The notes under the pieces: model-generated
Told to the model about the DNA's origin: nothing
Seen by the model: only the letters and a program-made list of their open reading frames with translations
Database searches by the model: none
Part shown: one piece after another, positions 7,029 to 18,464 of the stretch
Layout: each line of letters opens with the position of its first letter
How positions within the stretch are numbered: the stretch's first letter is position 1
Position numbers and translations under genes: made by a program
NCBI RefSeq assembly: GCF_007845675.1
Contig: NZ_VOBR01000013.1
Coordinates: forward strand, 62,001-126,000
Source of the DNA: Lentzea tibetensis
GTDB taxonomy: Bacteria > Actinomycetota > Actinomycetes > Mycobacteriales > Pseudonocardiaceae
Direction of reading: 5' to 3'
DNA: 64,000 nt

Positions 7029-7405
7029 CCTTCGGGCTCGAAGATCCGGGTGGAACCGCCGTGACTCCCCAAGCGGAGTCACGGCGGCTCCGTCGGCGGC
7101 GGCCGACCCGGTCACACCTCGGCGCAATGAGGCCCATCGCCCCTCACTTGTGCAGCCACCGCCCGGGAGTCTCGCCTCCGGACACGGTGACCGGCACGCC
7201 CTCCCCGGAGTGCCGGGAGGAGCTGCGGGCTGTCGCCGAGCAGGTGTTGCAACTGGTTCCAGGATGACCGAACCAGGGTCATTTGGCAACGAACATTCCG
7301 CGGAGCGGGCGACGTTCAGGCGAACCCGCGATCAACTTTTGGCGGACGACCTGGTCGCCGCGGTTCGCTAACCTCGCCCCGATGACCTTGGACGAGGGGG
7401 CGCCC
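7029..7405 (+). other. intergenic region between rnj and atpB
   Basis: It contains the rnj terminator and a possible 46-codon reading frame at 7127-7267 with no RBS and no recognised family. Just before atpB, TAACCT (7369-7374) is spaced as a -10 element for a leaderless start at ATG 7382. Confidence 0.35.
7056..7087 (+). terminator. rnj intrinsic terminator hairpin
   Basis: Perfect inverted repeat with an 11-bp core GCCGTGACTCC (7058-7068) / GGAGTCACGGC (7075-7085), extendable to 13 bp, and a 6-base loop. It starts 28 bases after the RNase J stop. No T-run follows. Confidence 0.75.
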
Positions 7406-8173
7406 ATGGCCGACAACACGTTCACGCCGCCTGGCCCGGCTGACTTCGAGCTGCCGCCGATCTTCGGCGGCGTCACCAAGCCGATGATCCTGATCGTGTT
7501 CAGCGTGCTGATCATCAGCACGTTCTTCCTGGTGACGACGCGCAACATGAAGCTGGTGCCCGGCAGGCTGCAGTTCGCGGCGGAGTCGGTGTACGACTTC
7601 GGCCGCAACACCATCGCGCGCGAGCAGATCGGTGCGGCGGACTTCCAGAAGTACGTGCCGTTCATCCTGTCATTGTTCACGTTCGTGCTGGTGAACAACA
7701 TCTTCGGGCTCGTGCCGCTGATCCAGTTCCCGACGATGGCGCACATCGGGTTCCCGGCGGCGGTGGCGATCCTGCTGGTGTTCCCGCTCTACCACTTCGT
7801 CGGCGTCAAGCGGCACGGACTGAGGCAGTACCTGAAGAACCAGTTCGTGATCCCGGACGTGCCGAAGCCGGTGCTGTGGCTGCTGCTCATCCCGACCGAG
7901 GTCATGCTGAAGTTCTTCTTCGACCCGGTGAACCTGGCGATCCGGGTGTTCGCCGCGATGTTCGCCGGGCACCTGCTGGTCCTGGTGTTCGTGCTCAGCG
8001 GTGAGTTCCTGTTGCTCGAAGCCGGGCCGCTGCTGAAGCCCGTGGCCGCGGTCAGCTTCGTGTTCGCCATCGGCATCACGATGCTGGAGGCGCTGATCAT
8101 GGTGTTGCAGGCCTACATCTTCGCGACGCTCAGCGCCCACTACATCGGCCGGGCGCTCGCCGCGCACCACTGA
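7406..8173 (+). CDS. atpB: ATP synthase subunit a homologue (orphan)
   Basis: An integral membrane protein of 255 residues that matches F1Fo subunit a, the proton-channel subunit. Five to six hydrophobic helices are visible. The essential arginine of the penultimate helix is present in NLAIRVFAAMFAGH, and the last helix keeps the conserved LQAYIF glutamine. The usual Asn after the arginine helix is Ala. ATG 7406 has a GAGGGGG RBS 5 bases upstream. An upstream ATG at 7382 could be a leaderless start. No other atp gene is nearby, which is unusual because subunit a normally heads the atp operon. It may be a second copy or a relocated gene. Confidence 0.85.
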   Translation: MADNTFTPPGPADFELPPIFGGVTKPMILIVFSVLIISTFFLVTTRNMKLVPGRLQFAAESVYDFGRNTIAREQIGAADFQKYVPFILSLFTFVLVNNIFGLVPLIQFPTMAHIGFPAAVAILLVFPLYHFVGVKRHGLRQYLKNQFVIPDVPKPVLWLLLIPTEVMLKFFFDPVNLAIRVFAAMFAGHLLVLVFVLSGEFLLLEAGPLLKPVAAVSFVFAIGITMLEALIMVLQAYIFATLSAHYIGRALAAHH

Positions 8174-8181
8174 CGACGCGA

Positions 8182-8213
8182 AGGGGCGCGTCCACCGAAG
8201 TGAACGCGCCCCT
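8182..8213. terminator. bidirectional terminator between atpB and the repeat-protein operon
   Basis: Perfect 10-bp inverted repeat AGGGGCGCGT (8182-8191) / ACGCGCCCCT (8204-8213). It lies between the convergent stops of atpB (8173) and the secreted protein gene (8226), so it can serve both transcripts. Confidence 0.7.
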
Positions 8214-8225
8214 GGTCGATCCGAT

Positions 8226-9476
8226 CTAGATCGGGCGGTAGTTCGGGCCGCCGTAGGGCCTCTCGTAGACGCCGCTGCCGTCGTCGAAGAGGATCCGCCA
8301 CATGCCGTCCTCTGGCCGGTAGGTGACGTAGTCGGCGTTGCCGTTTCCGTTGAAGTCACCGGAGACCGGGACCTCGCCGGGCGAGCCCCACTGGCGCTCG
8401 TAGACGCCGCCGGAGTCGAACAGGATGTGCCACACGCCGTCTTCGGGGCTGTAGGTCACGTAGTCGCTGTGCCCGTTGCCGTTGAAGTCGCCGCCGACCG
8501 GGATCTCGCCCGGTGAACCCCACTGGCGCTCGTAGAAACCGCCGTCGTCGAACAGGATGTGCCAGGTGCCGTCGGACGGCCGGTAGGTCACGTAGTCCGA
8601 CTTGCCGTTGCCGTTGAAGTCGCCTGCCACCGGGATGTCGCCGGGGTTGCCCCACTGCCGGTCGTACACGCCGCCGTCGTCGAACAGGATGTGCCACATC
8701 CCGGTTTCCTGCGTGAACGTCACGTAGTCGGAGTTGCCGTTGCCGTTGAAGTCACCGGCGACGGGGATCTCGCCGGGGGAGCCCCAGTCGCGGACGTACT
8801 CGCCGCCCGAGTCGAACAGGATGTTGTACATCAGGTCGGACTCGCGCCAGACCGCGTAGTCCGTGGAACCGTTGCCGTTGAAGTCCGACGAGTAGAGCGC
8901 GGCCTTGGACGGTGCGCCGGCACCCCACAACGCATCGGCGATGACCTCACCGTCGTGCGCCTGCCCGTAGTAGGCGGTCGGGGTTCCGGAGTGCTGGACG
9001 TCCTGGCAGACCTCGCCGATCGGCTTGCTGTGCCAGTTGGACACCTTCACCAGGTGGTTGATGAACTCGTTGGTGGCGTGCACCGGGTCCACGACCTGTT
9101 CCGGTGTGCCCCAGTTCATGCTGGGTCTCTGCTGGAAGAGTCCCCGCGAGTCGCGGTCGCCGCCGTCCAGGTTCTTGATGTTGGTCTCGACGATGGTCGT
9201 GGTGATCGCGATGGCCGCGGTGTGCTCGTCGAGACCGCGGGCCTTCACCACGTCGACGATGGCTCTGGCGCAGGACATCTGGTAGGCGTTGACGCCGCCT
9301 TTGAGCCGGCCGTTCAGCTTTCCGCTCAGTGACGAGGCGACCGCCTGGTCGGACTGGGTCGGGCCGCCGGACTGGCAGGGCAGGTTGTTCCAGGCGAGTG
9401 CGGACGGGGTGGTGGCCAGTGACAGGCCGGTGGCGAGTGCGGTCGCGGCGAGGCCGAGAGCGAGTGCGGACTTCAT
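8226..9476 (-). CDS. secreted lysozyme/transglycosylase-like protein with five DFNGNG repeats (protein A)
   Basis: A 416-residue exported protein. An N-terminal signal peptide ends near ATTPSALA. Residues about 30-185 resemble lytic transglycosylase-like domains of actinobacteria: a candidate glutamate in TTTIVETNIKN, then SRGLFQQRPSMNWGTPEQV. Residues about 195-416 are five repeats of 44 residues, each opening with DFNGNGxxDY (an EF-hand-like Ca loop) and continuing WHILFDxGGVY. The chain ends YGGPNYRPI. FG-GAP/VCBS-like repeats of this kind usually form beta-propellers. An AGAGGGA RBS precedes the ATG. The gap to the upstream gene is 33 bases, so the two form one operon. Confidence 0.8.
   Translation of the reverse strand: MKSALALGLAATALATGLSLATTPSALAWNNLPCQSGGPTQSDQAVASSLSGKLNGRLKGGVNAYQMSCARAIVDVVKARGLDEHTAAIAITTTIVETNIKNLDGGDRDSRGLFQQRPSMNWGTPEQVVDPVHATNEFINHLVKVSNWHSKPIGEVCQDVQHSGTPTAYYGQAHDGEVIADALWGAGAPSKAALYSSDFNGNGSTDYAVWRESDLMYNILFDSGGEYVRDWGSPGEIPVAGDFNGNGNSDYVTFTQETGMWHILFDDGGVYDRQWGNPGDIPVAGDFNGNGKSDYVTYRPSDGTWHILFDDGGFYERQWGSPGEIPVGGDFNGNGHSDYVTYSPEDGVWHILFDSGGVYERQWGSPGEVPVSGDFNGNGNADYVTYRPEDGMWRILFDDGSGVYERPYGGPNYRPI
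8229..8900 (-). repeat. DFNGNG-repeat domain, copy 1 of a recent tandem duplication
   Basis: This 672-bp block encodes the repeat tail of protein A. It aligns without gaps to 9513-10184 at a constant offset of 1284 bp, with only scattered substitutions. The upstream head regions are unrelated. The near-identity of the tails alone indicates recent duplication or gene conversion. Confidence 0.85.
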
Positions 9477-9509
9477 GACGATTCCCTCTTGATCGGTGCG
9501 AAAGTCGGA

Positions 9510-10763
9510 TTAGATGGGGCGGTAGTTCGGGCCGCCGTAGGGCCTCTCGTAGACGCCGCTGCCGTCGTCGAAGAGAATTCGCCACATGCCGTCCTCTGGC
9601 CGGTAGGTGACGTAGTCGGCGTTGCCGTTTCCGTTGAAGTCGCCCGAAACCGGGACCTCGCCCGGAGAACCCCACTGGCGCTCGTAGACGCCGCCGGAGT
9701 CGAACAGGATGTGCCACACACCGTCTTCGGGGCTGTAGGTCACGTAGTCCGCGTGCCCGTTGCCGTTGAAGTCACCCGCGACCGGGACCTCGCCCGGAGA
9801 ACCCCACTGGCGCTCGTAGAAACCACCGTCGTCGAAAAGAATGTGCCAGGTGTTGTCCGACGGCCGGTAGGTCACGTAGTCCGACTTGCCGTTGCCGTTG
9901 AAGTCGCCTGCCACCGGGATGTCGCCGGGGTTGCCCCACTGGCGGTCGTACACGCCGCCGTCGTCGAACAGGATGTGCCACATGCCGGTGTCGGGCGTGA
10001 AGGTGACGTAGTCGGAGTTGCCGTTGCCGTTGAAGTCACCGGCGACGGGGATCTCGCCGGGCGAGCCCCAGTCGCGGACGTACTCGCCGCCCGAGTCGAA
10101 CAGGATGCTGTACATCAGGTCGGACTCGCGCCAGACCGCGTAGTCCGTGGAACCGTTGCCGTTGAAGTCCGACGAGTACAGGGCCGCGCGGGAGTGCTGC
10201 GGGGCGGAGGAGTCGATGATGTTCTTGTAGCGCTTCGCCTGGTACTGGCTCGTGGGGTGGCCGTCGAGGTTCGCGCCGTTGAACGTGCCGACCTCCTTCG
10301 AGACCGGCGTCGAGCCGAAGGTGTAATAGGTGAAATGCACACCGTCGGCGTGGTAACCGCCGAACAGGAAGGTGTGGCCGTTGAGGACGAGGAAGTCACC
10401 GGGCTTCAGCTCGGCACGGCTGATGTTGAAGAACCGGGAGTCCGTGAGCATGGTCGCGGAGCCGGGGTCGTTCGTCAGGTGCAGTGCCATCGACACGTAT
10501 CCCGAGCAGTCCGTCCGGTAGTCCTTGCCCGAGGAGTCCTTGGCTGTGCCCTTCTGGTTGTACTTGAGTCCCTTGTTCAGCCAGAACTCGGCGCGCTGAA
10601 TGACCTCGTCGCGGGAGATCGCGCCGCCGACGTCGGAAGCAGAGGCGGCGGGGGCCATGATCGTGGAACTGACCGCGGTGGCCGCGACCATGGTTCCGGT
10701 GAATGCGAGAACCAGTGGGAGAGTCGCGGCTCCGGCCCATTCGATTGCCTTCTTGATGCGCAT
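9510..10763 (-). CDS. secreted NlpC/P60-like protein with five DFNGNG repeats (protein B)
   Basis: A 417-residue exported protein. A signal peptide with hydrophobic core TLPLVLAFTGTMVAATAV ends near PAASAS. Residues about 45-185 look like an NlpC/P60-type cysteine peptidase: the candidate nucleophile is in YRTDCSGYVSMALHL, followed by PGDFLVLNGHTFLFGGY with a candidate histidine. Such domains cut peptide stems of peptidoglycan. Residues about 194-417 are five DFNGNGxxDY repeats almost identical to those of protein A. An AGGAGG RBS lies 7 bases before ATG 10763. It lies 88 bases downstream of the SARP regulator on the same strand, suggesting a regulator-B-A operon. Confidence 0.8.
   Translation of the reverse strand: MRIKKAIEWAGAATLPLVLAFTGTMVAATAVSSTIMAPAASASDVGGAISRDEVIQRAEFWLNKGLKYNQKGTAKDSSGKDYRTDCSGYVSMALHLTNDPGSATMLTDSRFFNISRAELKPGDFLVLNGHTFLFGGYHADGVHFTYYTFGSTPVSKEVGTFNGANLDGHPTSQYQAKRYKNIIDSSAPQHSRAALYSSDFNGNGSTDYAVWRESDLMYSILFDSGGEYVRDWGSPGEIPVAGDFNGNGNSDYVTFTPDTGMWHILFDDGGVYDRQWGNPGDIPVAGDFNGNGKSDYVTYRPSDNTWHILFDDGGFYERQWGSPGEVPVAGDFNGNGHADYVTYSPEDGVWHILFDSGGVYERQWGSPGEVPVSGDFNGNGNADYVTYRPEDGMWRILFDDGSGVYERPYGGPNYRPI
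9513..10184 (-). repeat. DFNGNG-repeat domain, copy 2 of the tandem duplication
   Basis: This 672-bp block encodes the tail of protein B and pairs with 8229-8900. A third, more diverged relative lies in forward orientation at about 14200-14883. Confidence 0.85.
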
Positions 10764-10851
10764 TTCGTTTCCCTCCTGCGTTTCCCTCTCGGGGCTGACA
10801 GGAAGAAATTTAGAAAACCGTTCTGGCAGAAACCTGGCACGAACCTGTACG

Positions 10852-13701
10852 TCAGGACCGGGTGCGTGCCAGACCGTCCAGAGCGTGTTCCAGCTCGGCC
10901 AGGTACTCGATGCGCTCCGCCAGGTACCGGGCCTGCGTGTGGTGCGCGATCGCGGCCGGGACGTCGCCCCGGTCGAACGCGATGTCGCCCAGCACGTTGT
11001 GGGCGGTGGCCAGGTGGTCCGCGCTGCGGCCGTGGCCGAGCATCTCCACCGCCCGCTCGCCGAACGAGGCCGCCGCGGCGAGGTCACCGGCGCGACGGCG
11101 GGCGTCGGCCGACTTGATCAGGGCGCGCATCTCGTAGTGGGTGTTGCCGACCTCGCGCGCCAGTTCCAGCGCCTCGGCCAACAGCTCGGCGGCCTGCTCG
11201 TGCTCGCCCAGCCTGGCGTGGACGGCGCCCAGTGCGGCGAGCACGGACCCCTCCTCGCTGCGCTCGCCGATCTCCCTGTTCTTGATCAGCGCCTTGTCCA
11301 GCTGCTCGCGCGCGCCCGCCAGCTGCCCGAGCGTGAGGTGGACCCGTCCCTGGTTCGCGATGGTGATCGCGGCGTGCCGGTAGTTGTTCTGCTGCTGCTG
11401 GATCGGCAGCGCTGCCTCGTACGCCGCCATCGCGTCGGCGTAGTCGCCGAGCCGGTGCAGCAGCATGCCCCGCACGACCAGCGCCATGCTCTCGCGCGCC
11501 TGGTCGGCCACGTCCCGCGCCAGCGCGAGGGTGCGGTCCGCGTGCGTCAAGCCGGCCCGGTACTGGCACTGCATGTACCGGGTGAGCGCCAGGTGGTACT
11601 GGCTGCGCGACTCGGCGACGGGGTCACCCAGCCTGCGGGCCGCTTCGGCGGCCGGTTCCTGGATGGCGACCAGGTCGTCGACGCGTTCGGAGATCACCAG
11701 GTAGTTGCCGACGTGGCTGGGCAGCTCGCTGGCCGCCCGGTCGAACCCGGACGCCGCCGCGAGCCGTGCCAGCGCGACGAGGTTCGCGTGCTCGGAGGTG
11801 AACCAGCCCATCGCGGTCTGGGTGTCGCGCAGCCGGGGGAGACGGGCGGGCACGCGGCCGACCGTCGGTCCCGGCTCCCGTCTGCCCGGCTGCAGCAGGT
11901 CGGCCGCGAAGTGCGCGACGTGCAGGTAGTAGTCCAGCAGCCGGCCGGTCGCCTTCTGCTGCTCCCGCGCGGGTTCCTCCGCGTCGACCAGCGCCCTGGC
12001 GTGGTCGCGGACCAGGTCGTGCATCGTGTACCGGCCGCGCGCGCGTTGCTCGACCAGGTGGAGGTCGAGCAGGTCCTCCAGCAGGTCGTCGGCGTCCAGG
12101 TAGGGCACGTCCGCCAGCGCCGCGGCCGCGAGCGCGTCGACGTCCGTGCCGGGATGCAGGCCGAGCAATCGGAACATGCGCTGGTGCGCCGGGCCGAGGT
12201 CCCGATAGGACAGTGCGAACGCGGCCGCGATGTCGCTGTGCCGCCTGCGTTCCTCGCGAAACCGCTCGACCGCGTCCTCGACCGCCCATTGTGGACGGTG
12301 CAGCAGCCGGGCGGCCGCGATCCTGATCGCCAGCGGCAGACCGCCGCACAACCGGACCAGCTCGCGCGCCGCGTCGGGTTCCGCCGCGACCCGGTCGCCG
12401 AGCACGCGCGTCAGCAGCGCCAGCGCGTCGTCGTCGGCCAGCACGTCCAGCGACAGCAGCACCGCGCCGTGGACCGTCCGCAGCCTGCGCCTGCTGGTGA
12501 CGATCACCAGGCAGTCCGGCGCACCTGAGATCAACGGGTCCACCTGCGCCGAGTCGGCGACGTTGTCCAGCACGATCACCGCGCGCCTGCCTGCCAGCTC
12601 GGTGCGCCACGCGGCGATCCGCTGGTCGACGTCGTTCGGGATCTCCGCGGCGGGCACGCCCAGCGACCGCAGCAGCACGTCCAGCGCCGCCACGGGCTCG
12701 ACCGGCTGCCTGCCCGCGGTGAACCCGTGCAGGTCGACGAAGAGCTGCGCATCGGGGTAGCGGTCGCGCAGGCGCTGCGCCACGTGCACGGCGAGCGTCG
12801 TCTTGCCGACCCCGGCCATGCCGTCGACCACCAGCACCGCGGTCGTGCCCGGCGCGGGCAGCTCGGCCAGCACCCGGTCCACCTCCGGCGACCTGCCGGT
12901 GAAGTCGGCGACGTCCAGCGGCAACGCGTTGCGGCCCCGTGCGGGCTCGGCCTCCGGTGGTGGCGGCTGGCGTTCCAGCAGCTCCTCGTCGGCGCGCAGG
13001 ATCCGCTCGTGCAGCGACCGCAGCTCCCCGCTCGGGTCGAGGCCGAGTTCGTCGGCCAGCCGCGACCGGGTGGTCTCGTAGCAGCGCAACGCATCCGCCT
13101 GCCTGCCGTTGCGGTACAGGGTGCGCATCAGCGCGGCGACGAGCGTCTCCCGCAACGGGTTGCCGGCCACCAGCACGGACAGCTCCGGCAGCACCTCGCG
13201 GTGCCTGCCCGCGCGCAGCTCGTGCTCCACCCACTCCTCGGCCACGACGAGGTGCTCCTCGGTGAGCGTGGTGCGCATGCCGTCGAAGAACGTCGTCCTC
13301 GGCACGCCCGCGAGCGGGTCGCCCCGCCACAGCGCCAGCGCGTCGCGCAGCAGCCCTGGGTCCTCCTCGGCGCGGGCCCGTGCGACCAGCGACCGGAACA
13401 TCAGGAGGTCGACGTGGTCCCGCTCGACCTCCAGCGCGTAGCCGGGGCCGCGCCGGGAGATCTGCACACCGGCCGGGCGCAGCACCTTGCGCAGGCCGGA
13501 CACATAGCCGTGGATCAGGCCGCGCGCGTCGTCGGACAGCGCCTCGTCCCACACCGCGTCGATCATCTTCTCGACCGGGACGGCCTCGCCCGCCTGCAGG
13601 GCGAGCAGGGTCAGCACGCCCCTCAGCAACGGTCTGCCGACGGGGTGGGGCGTTCCGCCGACGTGCACCTCGACCGCGCCCAGCAGCCGGATCCGCGTCA
13701 C
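10852..13701 (-). CDS. AfsR/SARP-family STAND regulator (BTAD, NB-ARC, TPR)
   Basis: A 949-residue transcriptional activator of AfsR type. Residues 1-90 form the OmpR-like winged helix (IRLLGAVEVHVGG at the start), followed by the BTAD domain to about 245. The NB-ARC ATPase begins near 270, with P-loop GMAGVGKTT near 297 and Walker B-like VIVLDNVADSAQ. TPR-like helical repeats fill 620-949. The start is GTG 13701. It diverges from the protein C gene 70 bp away and lies upstream of proteins B and A on the same strand. It probably controls the secreted set. The signal sensed is unknown. Confidence 0.88.
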   Translation of the reverse strand: MTRIRLLGAVEVHVGGTPHPVGRPLLRGVLTLLALQAGEAVPVEKMIDAVWDEALSDDARGLIHGYVSGLRKVLRPAGVQISRRGPGYALEVERDHVDLLMFRSLVARARAEEDPGLLRDALALWRGDPLAGVPRTTFFDGMRTTLTEEHLVVAEEWVEHELRAGRHREVLPELSVLVAGNPLRETLVAALMRTLYRNGRQADALRCYETTRSRLADELGLDPSGELRSLHERILRADEELLERQPPPPEAEPARGRNALPLDVADFTGRSPEVDRVLAELPAPGTTAVLVVDGMAGVGKTTLAVHVAQRLRDRYPDAQLFVDLHGFTAGRQPVEPVAALDVLLRSLGVPAAEIPNDVDQRIAAWRTELAGRRAVIVLDNVADSAQVDPLISGAPDCLVIVTSRRRLRTVHGAVLLSLDVLADDDALALLTRVLGDRVAAEPDAARELVRLCGGLPLAIRIAAARLLHRPQWAVEDAVERFREERRRHSDIAAAFALSYRDLGPAHQRMFRLLGLHPGTDVDALAAAALADVPYLDADDLLEDLLDLHLVEQRARGRYTMHDLVRDHARALVDAEEPAREQQKATGRLLDYYLHVAHFAADLLQPGRREPGPTVGRVPARLPRLRDTQTAMGWFTSEHANLVALARLAAASGFDRAASELPSHVGNYLVISERVDDLVAIQEPAAEAARRLGDPVAESRSQYHLALTRYMQCQYRAGLTHADRTLALARDVADQARESMALVVRGMLLHRLGDYADAMAAYEAALPIQQQQNNYRHAAITIANQGRVHLTLGQLAGAREQLDKALIKNREIGERSEEGSVLAALGAVHARLGEHEQAAELLAEALELAREVGNTHYEMRALIKSADARRRAGDLAAAASFGERAVEMLGHGRSADHLATAHNVLGDIAFDRGDVPAAIAHHTQARYLAERIEYLAELEHALDGLARTRS

Positions 13702-13770
13702 AAGCGCCCACAGTAGGAGATGTGCGCTGTTAGCATCGATCGGTTTTGATTCACAGACCTGGGGGTTTGC

Positions 13771-14883
13771 GTGCAGCAGCGCATATTTTTGTCTGTTTTG
13801 TCATTGTTCGCGGCTTTACTGGTCATTCCGGTGCACACGGCGGCAGCCGCCACCGACGGTCCGGAGAACTGCGCCGAGCACGCCTATGACGCCGGTTTCC
13901 GAGGCGATGACCTCGTCGAGGCCGTGGCGATCGGGATGGCGGAGTCGAAGTGCAAGACCTATTTCTACGACCCCGAACCCGCAGACCAGGGCATGTGGCA
14001 GATCAAGGTCGAGAAGAGCGACCCCTGGCGCAACGGCAAGAACGGCAACCTCCAGGCTCCGGCCTACAACGCGATCGTGACGCACCGCATGTCCGGCGGC
14101 GGCACGAACTGGAACGCGTGGACGACCTACAAGAACGGCACCTACCACCAGTACGAGGCCGCGGCGCTCGAGGCGGCCAACGACTACTTCGCGTCGCGCT
14201 ACTCGTCGGACTTCAACGGCAACGGAATGACCGACTACGCGCTCTGGCGCGAGTCCGACCTCATGTACAACATCCAGTTCGACACGGGCGGCGAGTACGT
14301 CCGGGACTGGGGCTCTCCCGGCGAGATCCCGGTGGCCGGTGACTTCAACGGCAACGGGCACAGCGACTACGTGACCTACCGGCCGTCGGACAGCACGTGG
14401 CACATCCTGTTCGACTCCGGTGGCGTCTACGACCGGGAGTGGGGCAGTCCCGGTGACGTCCCCGTCGCGGGCGACTTCAACGGCAACGGCCGTTCCGACT
14501 ACGCGACCTACCGCCCGTCGGACGGCTCCTGGCACATCCTGTTCGACAGCGGTGGTGCGTACGAGCCGGACTGGCGCTGGGGTCAGCCGGGCGACGTTCC
14601 GGTGGCCGGTGACTTCAACGGCAACGGCAACAGCGACTACGCCCTCTACCGCCCTTCGGACGGTTCGTGGCACGTCCTGCTGGACAGCGGTGGCGCGTAC
14701 GAGCCGGACTGGCGCTTCGGTTCGCCGGACGACGTTCCGGTCGCCGGTGACTTCAACGGCAACGGCAACGCCGACTACGCCCTCTACACGCCGGCCGACG
14801 GTTCGTGGCACGTCATGTTCGACACGGGCGGTGTGTACGAGCCGGAGTGGCGCTACGGCGGTCCGAACTACCGGCCCGTCTAG
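13771..14883 (+). CDS. secreted lysozyme-like protein with five DFNGNG repeats (protein C)
   Basis: A 370-residue exported protein. The signal peptide (SVLSLFAALLVIPVHTAAAA) precedes a lysozyme-like head at about 30-140, with the candidate catalytic glutamate in IGMAESKC, the DQGMWQI motif and AYNAIVTHRM. Residues about 144-370 hold five DFNGNGxxDY units, two of them lengthened to 46 residues, ending YGGPNYRPV. GTG 13771 has a GGGGG RBS 5 bases upstream. It diverges from the SARP gene. Its stop overlaps the stop of the convergent methyltransferase gene. The head differs from those of proteins A and B, so the tail is the shared module. Confidence 0.8.
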   Translation: MQQRIFLSVLSLFAALLVIPVHTAAAATDGPENCAEHAYDAGFRGDDLVEAVAIGMAESKCKTYFYDPEPADQGMWQIKVEKSDPWRNGKNGNLQAPAYNAIVTHRMSGGGTNWNAWTTYKNGTYHQYEAAALEAANDYFASRYSSDFNGNGMTDYALWRESDLMYNIQFDTGGEYVRDWGSPGEIPVAGDFNGNGHSDYVTYRPSDSTWHILFDSGGVYDREWGSPGDVPVAGDFNGNGRSDYATYRPSDGSWHILFDSGGAYEPDWRWGQPGDVPVAGDFNGNGNSDYALYRPSDGSWHVLLDSGGAYEPDWRFGSPDDVPVAGDFNGNGNADYALYTPADGSWHVMFDTGGVYEPEWRYGGPNYRPV

Positions 14884-15497
14884 GAACCCCTGCGGCACAC
14901 GAGGTAAAGGCTTTCCTCCGGTGTCGCGCCGGGATAGCTCGGCGTGAACACCGGACGGCTGCGGCGGATGACGTGGAAACCCAGGTCCTCGAGGTGCGAC
15001 ACGTAGGTCTCCTCGGAGAAGCTGGACACCACGATCTCCTGGCCCATCCACGGCAAGGTCACCTGTTCCGCGTCGACGGCGACCGTCGCGAGGAACAGGT
15101 GACCTCCTGGCCGCAGCCAGGACGCCATGCGCCGCAACGTCTCCACGATCTCCGCCTGCGGCATCTGCAGCAGTGCGAAGACGGAGCAGATCAGGTCGTA
15201 GGAGCCCTCGACGGCGGTGAGGTCGCGGACGTCGGCCCGTTGAAAAGTCGCCCCCGGCACTTGCGAGGACGCCAGTTCGACCATCACGGGCGACACGTCG
15301 ACGCCGGTCACCTTCATGCCCGCCTTGGCGAGCGTGCGGGCCACCGGAACGCCGGTTCCGCAGCCCGCGTCGAGGACCTGGCTGCCGGACGGCAGGGTCG
15401 CGACCAGCCACGCGAGCGTTCCGTGCAACGCGGGCTGGTGGGACCACGCCCGCTGGTACTCGAGTCCCAGCGTGTCGAAAACCTCGGCCGCTTCCAT
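14880..15497 (-). CDS. class I SAM-dependent methyltransferase
   Basis: A 205-residue protein with the SAM-binding motif VLDAGCGTGVPVARTLAKAG near residue 40, the acidic strand-2 end in VTGVDVSP, and post-motif LRPGGHLFLATV. The substrate is not predictable. It is divergent from the second SARP regulator, with a 200-bp region holding SARP-like repeats between them. Its stop overlaps the stop of protein C by 3 bases. ATG 15497 gives a normal N-terminus for the family. Confidence 0.8.
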   Translation of the reverse strand: MEAAEVFDTLGLEYQRAWSHQPALHGTLAWLVATLPSGSQVLDAGCGTGVPVARTLAKAGMKVTGVDVSPVMVELASSQVPGATFQRADVRDLTAVEGSYDLICSVFALLQMPQAEIVETLRRMASWLRPGGHLFLATVAVDAEQVTLPWMGQEIVVSSFSEETYVSHLEDLGFHVIRRSRPVFTPSYPGATPEESLYLVCRRGS

Positions 15498-15698: not shown

Positions 15699-18464
15699 AT
15701 GCTCGGGGCTCTGACGGCCTCGCTGAGCGGTCGCCCGCTGAGCCTCGGCCCGCCCCGCCAGCGCGCGGTGCTGGCCGTACTCGCCTTGCGCGCCAACCAC
15801 GTCGTGTCCCGCGCCGAGCTGATCGACGGCGTGTGGGGCGACGACCCACCGGCGAGCGCGGACAACGGCATCCACACCTACATCGCCGGGCTGCGCAGAC
15901 TTTTCGAGCCTGACCGCGCCTCGCGCGCGCCGAGCCAGGTGCTGCTCTCCACGGACGCTGGATACCTGCTGAGACTGGCGGGCGACCGGTCCGACGTCGC
16001 GACGTTCCGCGCTCGCCTGGACCAGGCCGCGCGGTTGCGCCCGGTGGAACCGGACCAGGCGATCGCCGCGTTCGACACCGCGCTCGGGTTGTGGCGCGGG
16101 ATCGCGCTGGACGGTGTGCCGGGCCCGACCGCCGCGGTGGAACGGGCGCGTCTCGCCGAGCTCCGGCTCACCGCCATCGAGCAACGCGCGGCGCTCATGC
16201 TGTCGGTCGGCCGGGAGGCCGAGGTCGCCGCCGAGCTGGCCACCATGGTCACCACGCACCCGCTGCGCGAACGCCTGCACGGACTGCTGATGTCCGCTTT
16301 GTACCGCGGTGGCAGGCAAGCGGAGGCGTTGTCCGTCTACGCGAACCTGCGCCGCCTGCTGATCGACGAGCTCGGCATCGAGCCCGGACCGGAGCTGCGC
16401 CAGCTGCACGAGCAGCTGCTGGTCGGGCAGCACGAGCCGCAGCCGGAGCCGGTGCCCAGCGCGCTGGTGCCCGCCCAGCTGCCGCACGACGTCCGCGACT
16501 TCACCGGCCGCGACGCGGAGATGCGCAGGCTGGAGGCGATCTTCTCCGAGCCGCGTGAGCACTCGACGGTGCTGGTCACGATCACCGGCTCCGGTGGTGT
16601 CGGCAAGACGGCGCTCGCGGTGCGGTTCGCGCACAGCGTCGCCGCGCGGTTCCCGGACGGCCAGCTGCACGTCGACCTGCGCGGTTTCGACGCGTCCTCG
16701 CCGCCGATCCAGCCCGCCGCCGCACTGCACCAGCTCCTGCAGAGCCTCGGTGTGCCACCGGAACGCATTCCGGACGAACTGCCCGCGAAGTCCGCTCTGT
16801 ACCGCAGTGTCCTGGCGGGCAAGCGGGTGCTCGTGCTGCTGGACAACGCGCGGCTCGCCGAGCAGGTGCGTCCGCTGCTGCCGGGCCGGTCGTCGTCGAT
16901 GGTGCTGGTGACGAGCCGCAACCAGCTCGGGGGACTGGTCGCCCGCGACGGAGCGCACTCGATCACCCTGGGCACGCTCACCGGCGCCGAGGCGCTGGAG
17001 CTGCTCGGCAGCGTGCTGGGGACGGCGAAAGTCTCCGCCGAACCGAGTGCGAGTGAAAAACTCGTCGAGTTGTGCGGGCACCTGCCGCTGGCGTTGCGCA
17101 TCGCGGCCGAACGGGCGGTGACGCGGCCGCACCTGACGCTGGCGGACATGGCCGACGACCTGGCCGACGAGCACGACCGGCTCAACGTCCTGGCGACCGG
17201 TGATGACGAGGACACCGCGGTGCGCGCCGCGTTCTCGTGGTCGTACCTGGCGCTCAAGCCCGACGCCGCGCGGATGTTCCGGCTGATCGGGCTGCATCCC
17301 GGCGCGGAGATCAGCATCGGTGCGGCCGCCGCGCTCGCGGGCACGCCGTTGCCCCGCGCACGGGTGCTGCTGGACGTGCTGACCGGTGGGCACATGCTGG
17401 AGGAGGTCGCGCGCGGCCGGTTCCGGCTGCACGACCTGCTGCGGCTCTACGCGACCGAGCTGGCGGACACCGAGGAGTCGCGCCAGGGCAGGCTCGACGC
17501 GGTGTCCAGGATGCTCGACTGGTACCTCGCGAACGCGGACATGGCGGGCGCGATCATCTCGCCGCCCGACCACCCGCGCATCTGGGAACCGGTCGAGCCC
17601 ACCTCGGACCTCGCCACGCACGAAGAGGCTTTCGGTTGGTGCGTAACGGAGTTGCCGAACCTGGTCGCGGTCACGCGGTTCGCGCTCGACCACGCCCAGT
17701 GGGACCGCGCGTGGCAGATCCCGTTGGCGCTGTGGAACTTCCTGATCGTGTCCAGCGCGCTGAGCGAGTGGAACGAGACGTACCGGGTCGCCGAGCAGGC
17801 CGCCGAGCGCGCCGGGCATCCGCTGGCGCGCGGGTTCGCGATCCACGGGCAGGGGCTGGCGGCGTTCCGGCAGCAGCGGTTCGCGGACGCGCTGGAGATG
17901 TTCGACCGGGCGTTGGAAATTCGCCGTGCCATCGGTGATCGGGAAGGGGAGGCGTGGAGCCTCACCGGTCTCGGCATGGCCTACGGCGGCCTGCGCCAGT
18001 TCGATCTCGCGGTGGAGCGGTTCGAGGCCGCGCTGACCGGGCACCTGGAGGCGGGCTCGTGGTTCGGGGAGGCCGCGACCAGGCTGTTCATGAGCGACAG
18101 TCTGCGCGAGGGCGCCCAGTTCGACGCGTCGCTGCGCTCAGCACAAGCCGCGCTGAGCCTGTTCGGCGAACACGCCGCGTTGCACGGCAAGGGGATGGCG
18201 CTCACGAGCACGGGCAGGGCGCAGCGCGCGCTCGGCCGGCTCGGTGACGCGATGGAGCACTTCCGTCAGGCCCTCTCGTTGATGACAATGCTCGGCGACC
18301 GCAAGAGCCTCGCCGAGGCCATGCACGGGCTCGGGGAGGCGAGTTACAGCTCCGGTCAGCCGGAGCTGGCGCGCACCTACCTGCTGGACGCGCTGTCGAT
18401 CTACGAGACCTACGACCACCCCGCCACGCCCGAGGTCAGGGCGCTGCTGCACGAGATGTCCTGA
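15699..18464 (+). CDS. AfsR/SARP-family STAND regulator, second paralogue
   Basis: A regulator of about 921 residues with the same architecture as the gene at 10852: winged helix and BTAD (1-245), NB-ARC with P-loop GSGGVGKTA near 297 and VLVLLDNARLAEQ, then TPR-like helices. Family members start several residues before the GMLGALTA stretch. A CTG at 15675, preceded by GGGAGCAGGAA, may be the true start in place of ATG 15699. The last third has TPR signatures such as GRAQRALGRLGDAMEHFRQAL. It is followed after 8 bases by a methyltransferase gene. No biosynthetic cluster is adjacent, so its target is probably local. Confidence 0.88.
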   Translation: MLGALTASLSGRPLSLGPPRQRAVLAVLALRANHVVSRAELIDGVWGDDPPASADNGIHTYIAGLRRLFEPDRASRAPSQVLLSTDAGYLLRLAGDRSDVATFRARLDQAARLRPVEPDQAIAAFDTALGLWRGIALDGVPGPTAAVERARLAELRLTAIEQRAALMLSVGREAEVAAELATMVTTHPLRERLHGLLMSALYRGGRQAEALSVYANLRRLLIDELGIEPGPELRQLHEQLLVGQHEPQPEPVPSALVPAQLPHDVRDFTGRDAEMRRLEAIFSEPREHSTVLVTITGSGGVGKTALAVRFAHSVAARFPDGQLHVDLRGFDASSPPIQPAAALHQLLQSLGVPPERIPDELPAKSALYRSVLAGKRVLVLLDNARLAEQVRPLLPGRSSSMVLVTSRNQLGGLVARDGAHSITLGTLTGAEALELLGSVLGTAKVSAEPSASEKLVELCGHLPLALRIAAERAVTRPHLTLADMADDLADEHDRLNVLATGDDEDTAVRAAFSWSYLALKPDAARMFRLIGLHPGAEISIGAAAALAGTPLPRARVLLDVLTGGHMLEEVARGRFRLHDLLRLYATELADTEESRQGRLDAVSRMLDWYLANADMAGAIISPPDHPRIWEPVEPTSDLATHEEAFGWCVTELPNLVAVTRFALDHAQWDRAWQIPLALWNFLIVSSALSEWNETYRVAEQAAERAGHPLARGFAIHGQGLAAFRQQRFADALEMFDRALEIRRAIGDREGEAWSLTGLGMAYGGLRQFDLAVERFEAALTGHLEAGSWFGEAATRLFMSDSLREGAQFDASLRSAQAALSLFGEHAALHGKGMALTSTGRAQRALGRLGDAMEHFRQALSLMTMLGDRKSLAEAMHGLGEASYSSGQPELARTYLLDALSIYETYDHPATPEVRALLHEMS

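Follow-up and report, generated by a model that had tools for sequence, protein, structure and literature searches.

Locus-matched tails on different wall hydrolases: an inserted cassette in Lentzea tibetensis and related loci in actinomycetes

A 64,000-nucleotide stretch of the Lentzea tibetensis genome (contig NZ_VOBR01000013.1, positions 62,001 to 126,000; hereafter the window) carries a cassette of four genes. Three of these encode proteins, here called A, B and C, that join a signal-peptide-like N-terminus and one of three unrelated peptidoglycan hydrolase-type heads to the same five-unit repeat tail; the fourth encodes a regulator. Heads of the A type (GH184-type muramidase) and B type (NlpC/P60-like) occur at many further loci of the same actinomycete family, Pseudonocardiaceae, and what is new in them is a rule: different wall hydrolases carry one matched tail per locus, and the tail type changes between loci. 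The explanation we favour, with moderate confidence, is one inserted cassette whose tail serves as a locus-specific address, bringing complementary wall cutters to one target.

Among 150 genomes of the family, A-type heads were found in 149 (E 1e-8) and B-type heads in 42, and genes of the two types adjoin each other in many genomes. From the matches listed, 60 regions of up to 20 kb were picked by eye for a long open frame and for score, with many A-type matches on frames of 330-390 residues lying outside the sample; together with the window and L069, a sister locus in a congener, they make 62 loci. A total of 52 were counted, each holding a head-bearing open reading frame (ORF) whose tail is 130 residues or longer; ten, including L069 (cut by a contig end), were excluded. 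A neighbouring ORF was scored as co-tailed at 40% identity or more over at least 60% of the tail. In 38 of the 52 family loci with tailed A- or B-type heads, a neighbour has the same tail or propeller, and one of the 14 failing loci (L163) is cut by a contig end. At five of the 38 loci (L207, L208, L210, L211 and L217), the partner continues beyond the shared propeller with a C-terminal stretch, which is a CHAP domain in the one scanned (L211); at L205, the head of the partner lies off the contig.

The matching was measured in 22 A/B pairs. Coverage-weighted tail identity within a locus ranges from 47 to 98% (median 83.5%), and between loci its median is 19.0% (462 comparisons). A protein's own partner is its best tail match in 21 of the 22 pairs, the exception falling among two closely related loci (L169 and L171). 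Ten partners of neither A nor B type were scanned, and seven have recognisable wall hydrolase heads, namely GH73 (L187, L195), GH25 (L192), CHAP (L206, L209, L211) or M23 (L215). Hydrolase heads and shared tails do co-occur, and the outcome that the sequence-only reading of the window had named as refuting it, scattered repeats with no such co-occurrence, is not what is seen.

Comparison of heads with tails points to exchange of the latter. Of 374 A-head pairs aligned over at least 130 residues, 191 reach 50% identity or more, and tail identity stays below 30% in 160 of those 191 (the pairs not being independent). Taking one tail per set and single linkage, 39 sets fall into 25 tail clusters at 40% and 13 at 30%. 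The heads of L176 and L179 are 83-84% identical and their tails 57-58% between the loci, with tails 92% and 95% identical within each locus. Likewise, the sister cassette L069 and the window share 112 of 144 residues in their B heads (78%) and 84 of 112 in their C heads (75%); the first tail unit is identical at 41-45 of 46 positions within the window and at 38 of 46 within L069, but only at 22-27 of 44 between the two. To judge from these sequences, the members of a set appear to have their tails exchanged or homogenised jointly. Synonymous divergence (dS) of the 22 pairs runs from 0.005 (L191) to 0.80 (L199). In the genome of the window itself, four contigs (C15, C29, C88 and C97) hold five sets, with tails at most 31% identical between sets.

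Many tails have a period of 44-55 residues and about five or seven units, as expected for five- and seven-bladed propellers; several have no clear period, and that of L191 is 72. The five-unit tail of A, B and C is probably a five-bladed propeller. Pfam matches in the 20 proteins scanned include FG-GAP_3, DUF346 (PF03984) and tachylectin (PF14517), of which we take the latter two to be lectin domains; several tails match no family.

In the window, protein A (8226-9476, minus strand; 416 residues) and protein B (9510-10763, minus strand; 417 residues, the longer open frame there including upstream sequence) lie 33 bp apart. Protein C (13771-14883, plus strand; 370 residues, GTG start) is encoded at the other end of the cassette. 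The tails of A (8226-8885, minus strand) and B (9510-10169, minus strand) consist of FG-GAP-like units of 44, 44, 44, 44 and 43 residues and end in YGGPNYRPI; that of C (14209-14883, plus strand) has units of 44, 44, 46, 46 and 44 residues and ends in YGGPNYRPV (lengths counted without the stop codon). The earlier account of three secreted proteins on one repeat tail with DFNGNGxxDY loops and a YGGPNYRP end is borne out: each tail has five loops, all 15 match, and the three C-termini differ solely in the residue that follows (I, I and V, respectively). Its five repeats per tail also stand, with the proviso that the last unit of A and B, at 43 residues, falls below the 44-46 it had given. All three N-termini look like signal peptides, as judged by eye, in agreement with the proposed secretion.

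Between the tails of A and B, identity is 96.5% at the protein level and 94.2% at the DNA level, with a nonsynonymous divergence (dN) of 0.024 and a dS of 0.199; the tails of A and C, and of B and C, are 75.4% identical in protein. Each scores above the Pfam FG-GAP_3 (PF13517) cut-off of 26.9 bits (31.9, 37.0 and 30.9). A search of the window genome with the C tail puts the three cassette proteins well ahead of everything else, the next match by E-value being another protein at 50% over 123 residues; the likeness of the three tails is thus far beyond chance. Whole-gene duplication as the origin of the shared tails was ruled out, since the heads belong to unrelated families. Elsewhere in this genome, a 32-residue match, 69% identical, to the YGGPNYRP end, with a stop inside it (G000:C26:86330-86425; L011, L079), is perhaps the remnant of another cassette.

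The sequence-only reading had taken the three heads to be of muralytic type and unrelated to one another, and the family searches concur: A matches GH184, B is NlpC/P60-like and C matches SLT_3. The head of A has no Pfam match. As a single sequence, it matches the GH184 structures PDB 8b2h (E 2.6e-12) and 8b2e (E 2e-7), and a profile of 26 A heads matches them at 5.4e-22 and 1.1e-15. E97 of A aligns with position 41 of 8b2e, as counted in the alignment, and the corresponding Glu is invariant in 26 of 26 A heads. Glu41 of KsGH184 is essential by mutation (PMC10394673), and its residue numbering suggests that 8b2e is the KsGH184 chain. The likeness of A to the GH184 muramidases (PMC10394673; PDB 8b2e, 8b2h) therefore consists of the sequence match and the retention of the aligned catalytic Glu. 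However, the characterised members are fungal and most carry an SH3-like wall-binding domain (PMC10394673), whereas A has a propeller-like tail. Bacterial GH184 members without the SH3-like domain exist, and that paper leaves them undiscussed (PMC10394673). The A-head domain also occurs in phages, where 425 records match; among those listed, seven of ten stand under tape measure annotations, all seven in Streptomyces phages. Tape measure proteins with muralytic domains thus include relatives of the A head, but they are virion proteins.

The head of B scores 13.7 bits (E 0.062) against Pfam NlpC/P60 (PF00877), below the cut-off of 23. Its family profile nevertheless aligns with the endopeptidases MepS/Spr (2k1g, E 2e-4) and CwlO, in a range of E 2e-4 to 1e-3, and Cys43 and His87 of B are invariant in 26 of 26 B heads. 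The likeness to NlpC/P60 endopeptidases such as MepS and CwlO thus lies in the aligned Cys and His; B differs from them in falling under the Pfam cut-off and in its tail. The head of C is matched by SLT_3 (PF18896) well above its cut-off (E 3.7e-17; 63 bits against 27). The head alignments comprised 25 of 31 A-type fragments that passed a length filter plus that of the window (L163, L165, L210, L211, L216 and L219 left out), and likewise 25 of 27 B-type fragments plus that of the window (L163 and L184 left out), with weaker partial matches not included. Loss of catalytic residues, which would have undercut the muralytic assignment, is not seen: the Glu of A and the Cys and His of B are kept in all the heads aligned. 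By these matches, the set would join an enzyme that cuts glycan strands to one that cuts peptides and to another, lysozyme-like enzyme.

The cassette is an insertion. RNase J is present in 25 of 25 genomes of the genus, and the region behind it was compared with six relatives from among the 24 congeners. In five (L330-L334), the gene order is RNase J, a second atpB, a methyltransferase, a SARP-type regulator (SARP2), a DoxX-like protein, an acyltransferase and ftsK; the sixth (L329) is cut inside SARP2. The four cassette genes are missing at the site in all six relatives. Nucleotide alignments stop at window positions 8171-8177 and restart at 14894, or at 14880 in L333; in five relatives the two alignment ends lie no more than 132 bases apart (14 in L331, and an overlap of two in L333). 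Because the alignments end and resume exactly around it, the span 8174-14893, which has no counterpart between the second atpB and the methyltransferase gene in these relatives, is a 6.7-kb inserted cassette. It is not assignable to a known mobile element: no direct repeats of eight or more bases were found at its borders, and its guanine-plus-cytosine (GC) content of 0.688 is near that of the flanks (0.692 and 0.703) in a genome of 70% GC.

The site may take up different genes, given that in L329, from the genome (G020) whose RNase J has the highest similarity among the 24, it is occupied by another ORF, of 1,583 residues with repeated stretches (L329 1797-6548). In G002 the site is empty (L332), while B, the regulator and the beginning of C are found on a different contig (L069). 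Because L069 breaks off within both B and C, an adjacent A gene cannot be judged there; the two A-type matches of G002 are weak and lie elsewhere. As for the flanks, the plus-strand gene at 7283-8173 is a second F0F1 ATP synthase subunit a gene, apart from the other of two copies in the genome, and has a homologue at the same place in all six relatives. A second AfsR/SARP-like regulator adjoins the cassette on its other side (15699-18464, plus strand); it belongs to the older gene order, since it is found at the same place in the six relatives.

The check that the sequence-only reading had suggested, a search of related genomes for the YGGPNYRP end with DFNGNG repeats, gave a local answer, with such tails in the window genome and one of 24 congeners. 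A single conserved YGGPNYRP family across related genomes was thereby rejected, as close tails occur in two of the 25 genomes of the genus. Among 24 loci comprising L069 and the family-level tail matches, 11 gave an ORF with at least three units, ten of them without a recognised head. A search of wider genome contigs with protein C returned four distant repeat matches only, in unrelated bacteria.

How might a matched tail serve such a set? The closest model is the umbrella toxins, whose C-terminal propeller lectins come in many families, five-bladed ones among them, and recognise surface glycans specific to a species; lectin exchange retargets the particle (PMC13274773). The UmbA lectin subunits of Streptomyces umbrella toxins (PMC11062931, PMC13274773) are likewise secreted actinomycete proteins in which a variable C-terminal propeller or ricin-type domain sets the target, with several variants per genome and propeller families of five, six and seven blades. 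In UmbA, however, an inactive trypsin-like domain docks to UmbB/UmbC carrying one polymorphic toxin (PMC11062931, PMC13274773), whereas in the cassettes the tail is part of the wall hydrolase itself, and one tail is common to two or three enzymes of different kinds. Up to E 1, none of the three window proteins has a trypsin-like match, and the parts examined of the umbrella-toxin papers make no mention of such hydrolases (PMC11062931, PMC13274773).

The tail is read as an address and the hydrolases as the payload because the tail occupies the same place as the umbrella lectins, falls by sequence into similar fold classes, and is exchanged while the front is conserved; by this analogy, it is probably a sugar-binding address. 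The three hydrolases, a muramidase, an NlpC/P60 peptidase and an SLT_3-type enzyme, encoded alongside the regulator, would attack the wall in different ways, and one propeller tail would bring all of them to the same surface glycan, where glycan strands and peptide stems would be cut at one place. Tails would match because enzymes working on one wall need one address, and a change of tail in all members together would change that address. We infer glycan binding, joint action and control by the regulator. As the accessory distribution and the tail diversity suggest, the wall under attack most likely belongs to competing bacteria, probably Gram-positive ones as well. The combination of different hydrolases with a tail type that changes between loci is more in line with targeting that can be exchanged than with a single invariant signal for sorting or anchoring; of the earlier idea of a shared module, the reuse for several wall hydrolases thus stands, and the sorting or anchoring role fits less well.

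More tentatively, the cassettes may constitute an undescribed weapon common in one actinomycete family: sets of two or three complementary hydrolases, each with one exchangeable lectin propeller and often placed by an AfsR/SARP-like regulator, whose tails are replaced or made uniform together and whose differing addresses accumulate per genome, giving the organism a range of lysin mixtures directed against different neighbours. Modular endolysins and bacteriolysins also join a catalytic head to a binding domain that gives the target range. Here, by contrast, several genes of one locus share the end domain, which changes for all together. In the openly licensed literature searched, mostly by titles and the starts of abstracts, no description of co-tailed wall hydrolases was found, in keeping with the first impression that the combination is not a described system. 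If the tails are addresses, the loci would amount to a catalogue made by nature, in which antibacterial enzyme sets already stand paired with the glycans they recognise, and within-locus tail matching would offer a sequence-only test for proteins acting together. The wall hydrolases that actinomycetes secrete would be connected with targeting by lectins as demonstrated in umbrella toxins, and a concrete biological setting would be gained for the bacterial GH184-type muramidases, which the founding paper leaves aside (PMC10394673).

Several observations weigh against this explanation. The A-type head is near-universal in the family, so most A-type proteins are not known in such sets. Three of the ten scanned partners are not plain wall hydrolases: that of L186 has a GH75 head and PG_binding_1 repeats as the shared tail, that of L161 is GH32/GH43-like with a diverged tail, and that of L218 matches no family. 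The window genome has a tailed B-type gene (C38, L200) without a co-tailed neighbour. Outside the family, the rule is rare: a class-wide check of 40 regions chosen for B-type heads gave 43 B-type ORFs, 33 with a tail of at least 130 residues, and three of these 33, from other families of the class, are co-tailed. The tail profile matches no PDB chain. No immunity gene was recognised while reading the ORFs, though no search aimed at immunity genes was made. Finally, tail sharing could also serve assembly or self-anchoring.

Self-directed wall remodelling seems unlikely to us. In this reading, the tail would hold the enzymes on wall polymers of the producer itself while it germinates, branches its hyphae or lyses, and would vary with the wall polymers of strains. 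Gram-positive peptidoglycan hydrolases are often autolysins, AfsR-type regulators act in development and metabolism, and the want of a recognised immunity gene, with the limit just given, speaks for it as well. Yet the five sets with dissimilar tails in one genome would need five self-ligands, and a cassette missing at its site in every relative compared, with close tail copies in so few genomes of the genus, also speaks against such a role. Less probable still is an assembly module, in which matched tails would bind each other or a common scaffold to form a multi-enzyme complex with no need of a common ligand. Self-recognition predicts within-locus matching as well as a shared ligand does, but the regular five- or seven-unit tails, the DUF346 and tachylectin matches (presumably lectins) and the ricin-type tails on plasmids point to sugar-binding folds, and no scaffold gene was recognised in the cassette. 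Neutral duplication, the spread of FG-GAP-type domains by local recombination with unselected sameness, is the least probable: near-identity in DNA of some pairs (L191 99.9%, L167 98.4%) indicates that recent local copying occurs, and protein conservation is not found in all pairs (L169, dN 0.475 and dS 0.55), but many pairs keep their protein despite synonymous change (L197, dN 0.028 and dS 0.362; A and B of the window, 0.024 and 0.199), the members of a set differ in their heads, and the genus also has FG-GAP-tailed proteins that lack partners of this kind (subtilase-like by eye).

The cassette also includes a regulator that the sequence-only reading had not mentioned. Between B and C lies a gene for a 949-residue AfsR/SARP-like protein (10852-13701, minus strand), on the same strand as B and A, upstream of both, and 88 bp from B. 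It scores 570.6 bits against NCBIfam NF053617, below the AfsR cut-off of 1430, and by sequence is AfsR/SARP-like, not AfsR itself. The regulator, B and A look like an operon with C divergent, C beginning 69 bp away on the opposite strand. This gap (13702-13770) between the divergent genes is a candidate shared promoter region, and no sigma-70-type promoter match was found in it. In L069, a regulator 75% identical to that of the window stands beside the B and C orthologues.

Across the 62 loci, AfsR/SARP-like genes (at least 600 aligned residues) occur in 31, and in 27 they lie within 600 bp of head-bearing or co-tailed ORFs. Scoring of 150 out of 211 candidates gave at least 85 BTAD matches in the 9.36 Mb of the window genome, or roughly one every 110 kb; about 2.8 of 62 loci would be expected by chance within a 5-kb span, a rough figure that takes the density of one genome and treats related loci as independent. 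The regulator was rejected as a mark of co-tailed loci, which also tells against the favoured explanation: it occurs in 20 of 40 loci with a co-tailed neighbour and 11 of 22 without, the list of 40 being a hand-made one of loci co-tailed or cut by a contig end.

Beyond the enzymes themselves, a third gene stands by some A/B pairs (L161 10336-13239, L165 6418-8736 and L166 12040-14379), with a propeller 42-45% identical to the tails of the pair. Its head in L161 matches GH32/GH43, and the L165 and L166 genes look alike by eye. In L145, the ORF upstream of the A/B pair (3-1838) joins a TPR-like sequence to FG-GAP-like units, again by eye.

The rule belongs mainly to the family of the window and to Streptomyces plasmids. 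In the latter, 48 records match the B-type head; six of the 25 loci listed were opened, and five are co-tailed. In four of them, the co-tailed partner of the B-type gene is the gene next to it, at 98% (L221), 81% (L222), 99% (L224) and 60% (L226), and these partners are annotated as transglycosylase family (two), glycoside hydrolase domain (one) and peptidoglycan metalloendopeptidase (one); the first of them matches Rpf models, below their cut-off. In L223, 67% is shared with a neighbour on the other strand, and the B-type gene of L225 has no co-tailed neighbour. Some B-type genes of Streptomyces plasmids have ricin-type tails. Two neighbouring genes of Nonomuraea gerenzanensis have 79% in common over 361 residues, with no family assigned to the head of the first. 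On plasmid pSMg1-1 of Streptomyces sp. Mg1 (L302 5113-7071), a trypsin-like protein with altered catalytic motifs (TAASC and GDTGG, by eye) carries an FG-GAP-like tail; it looks like an UmbA-type protein with a tail of the same general kind as those of the cassettes.

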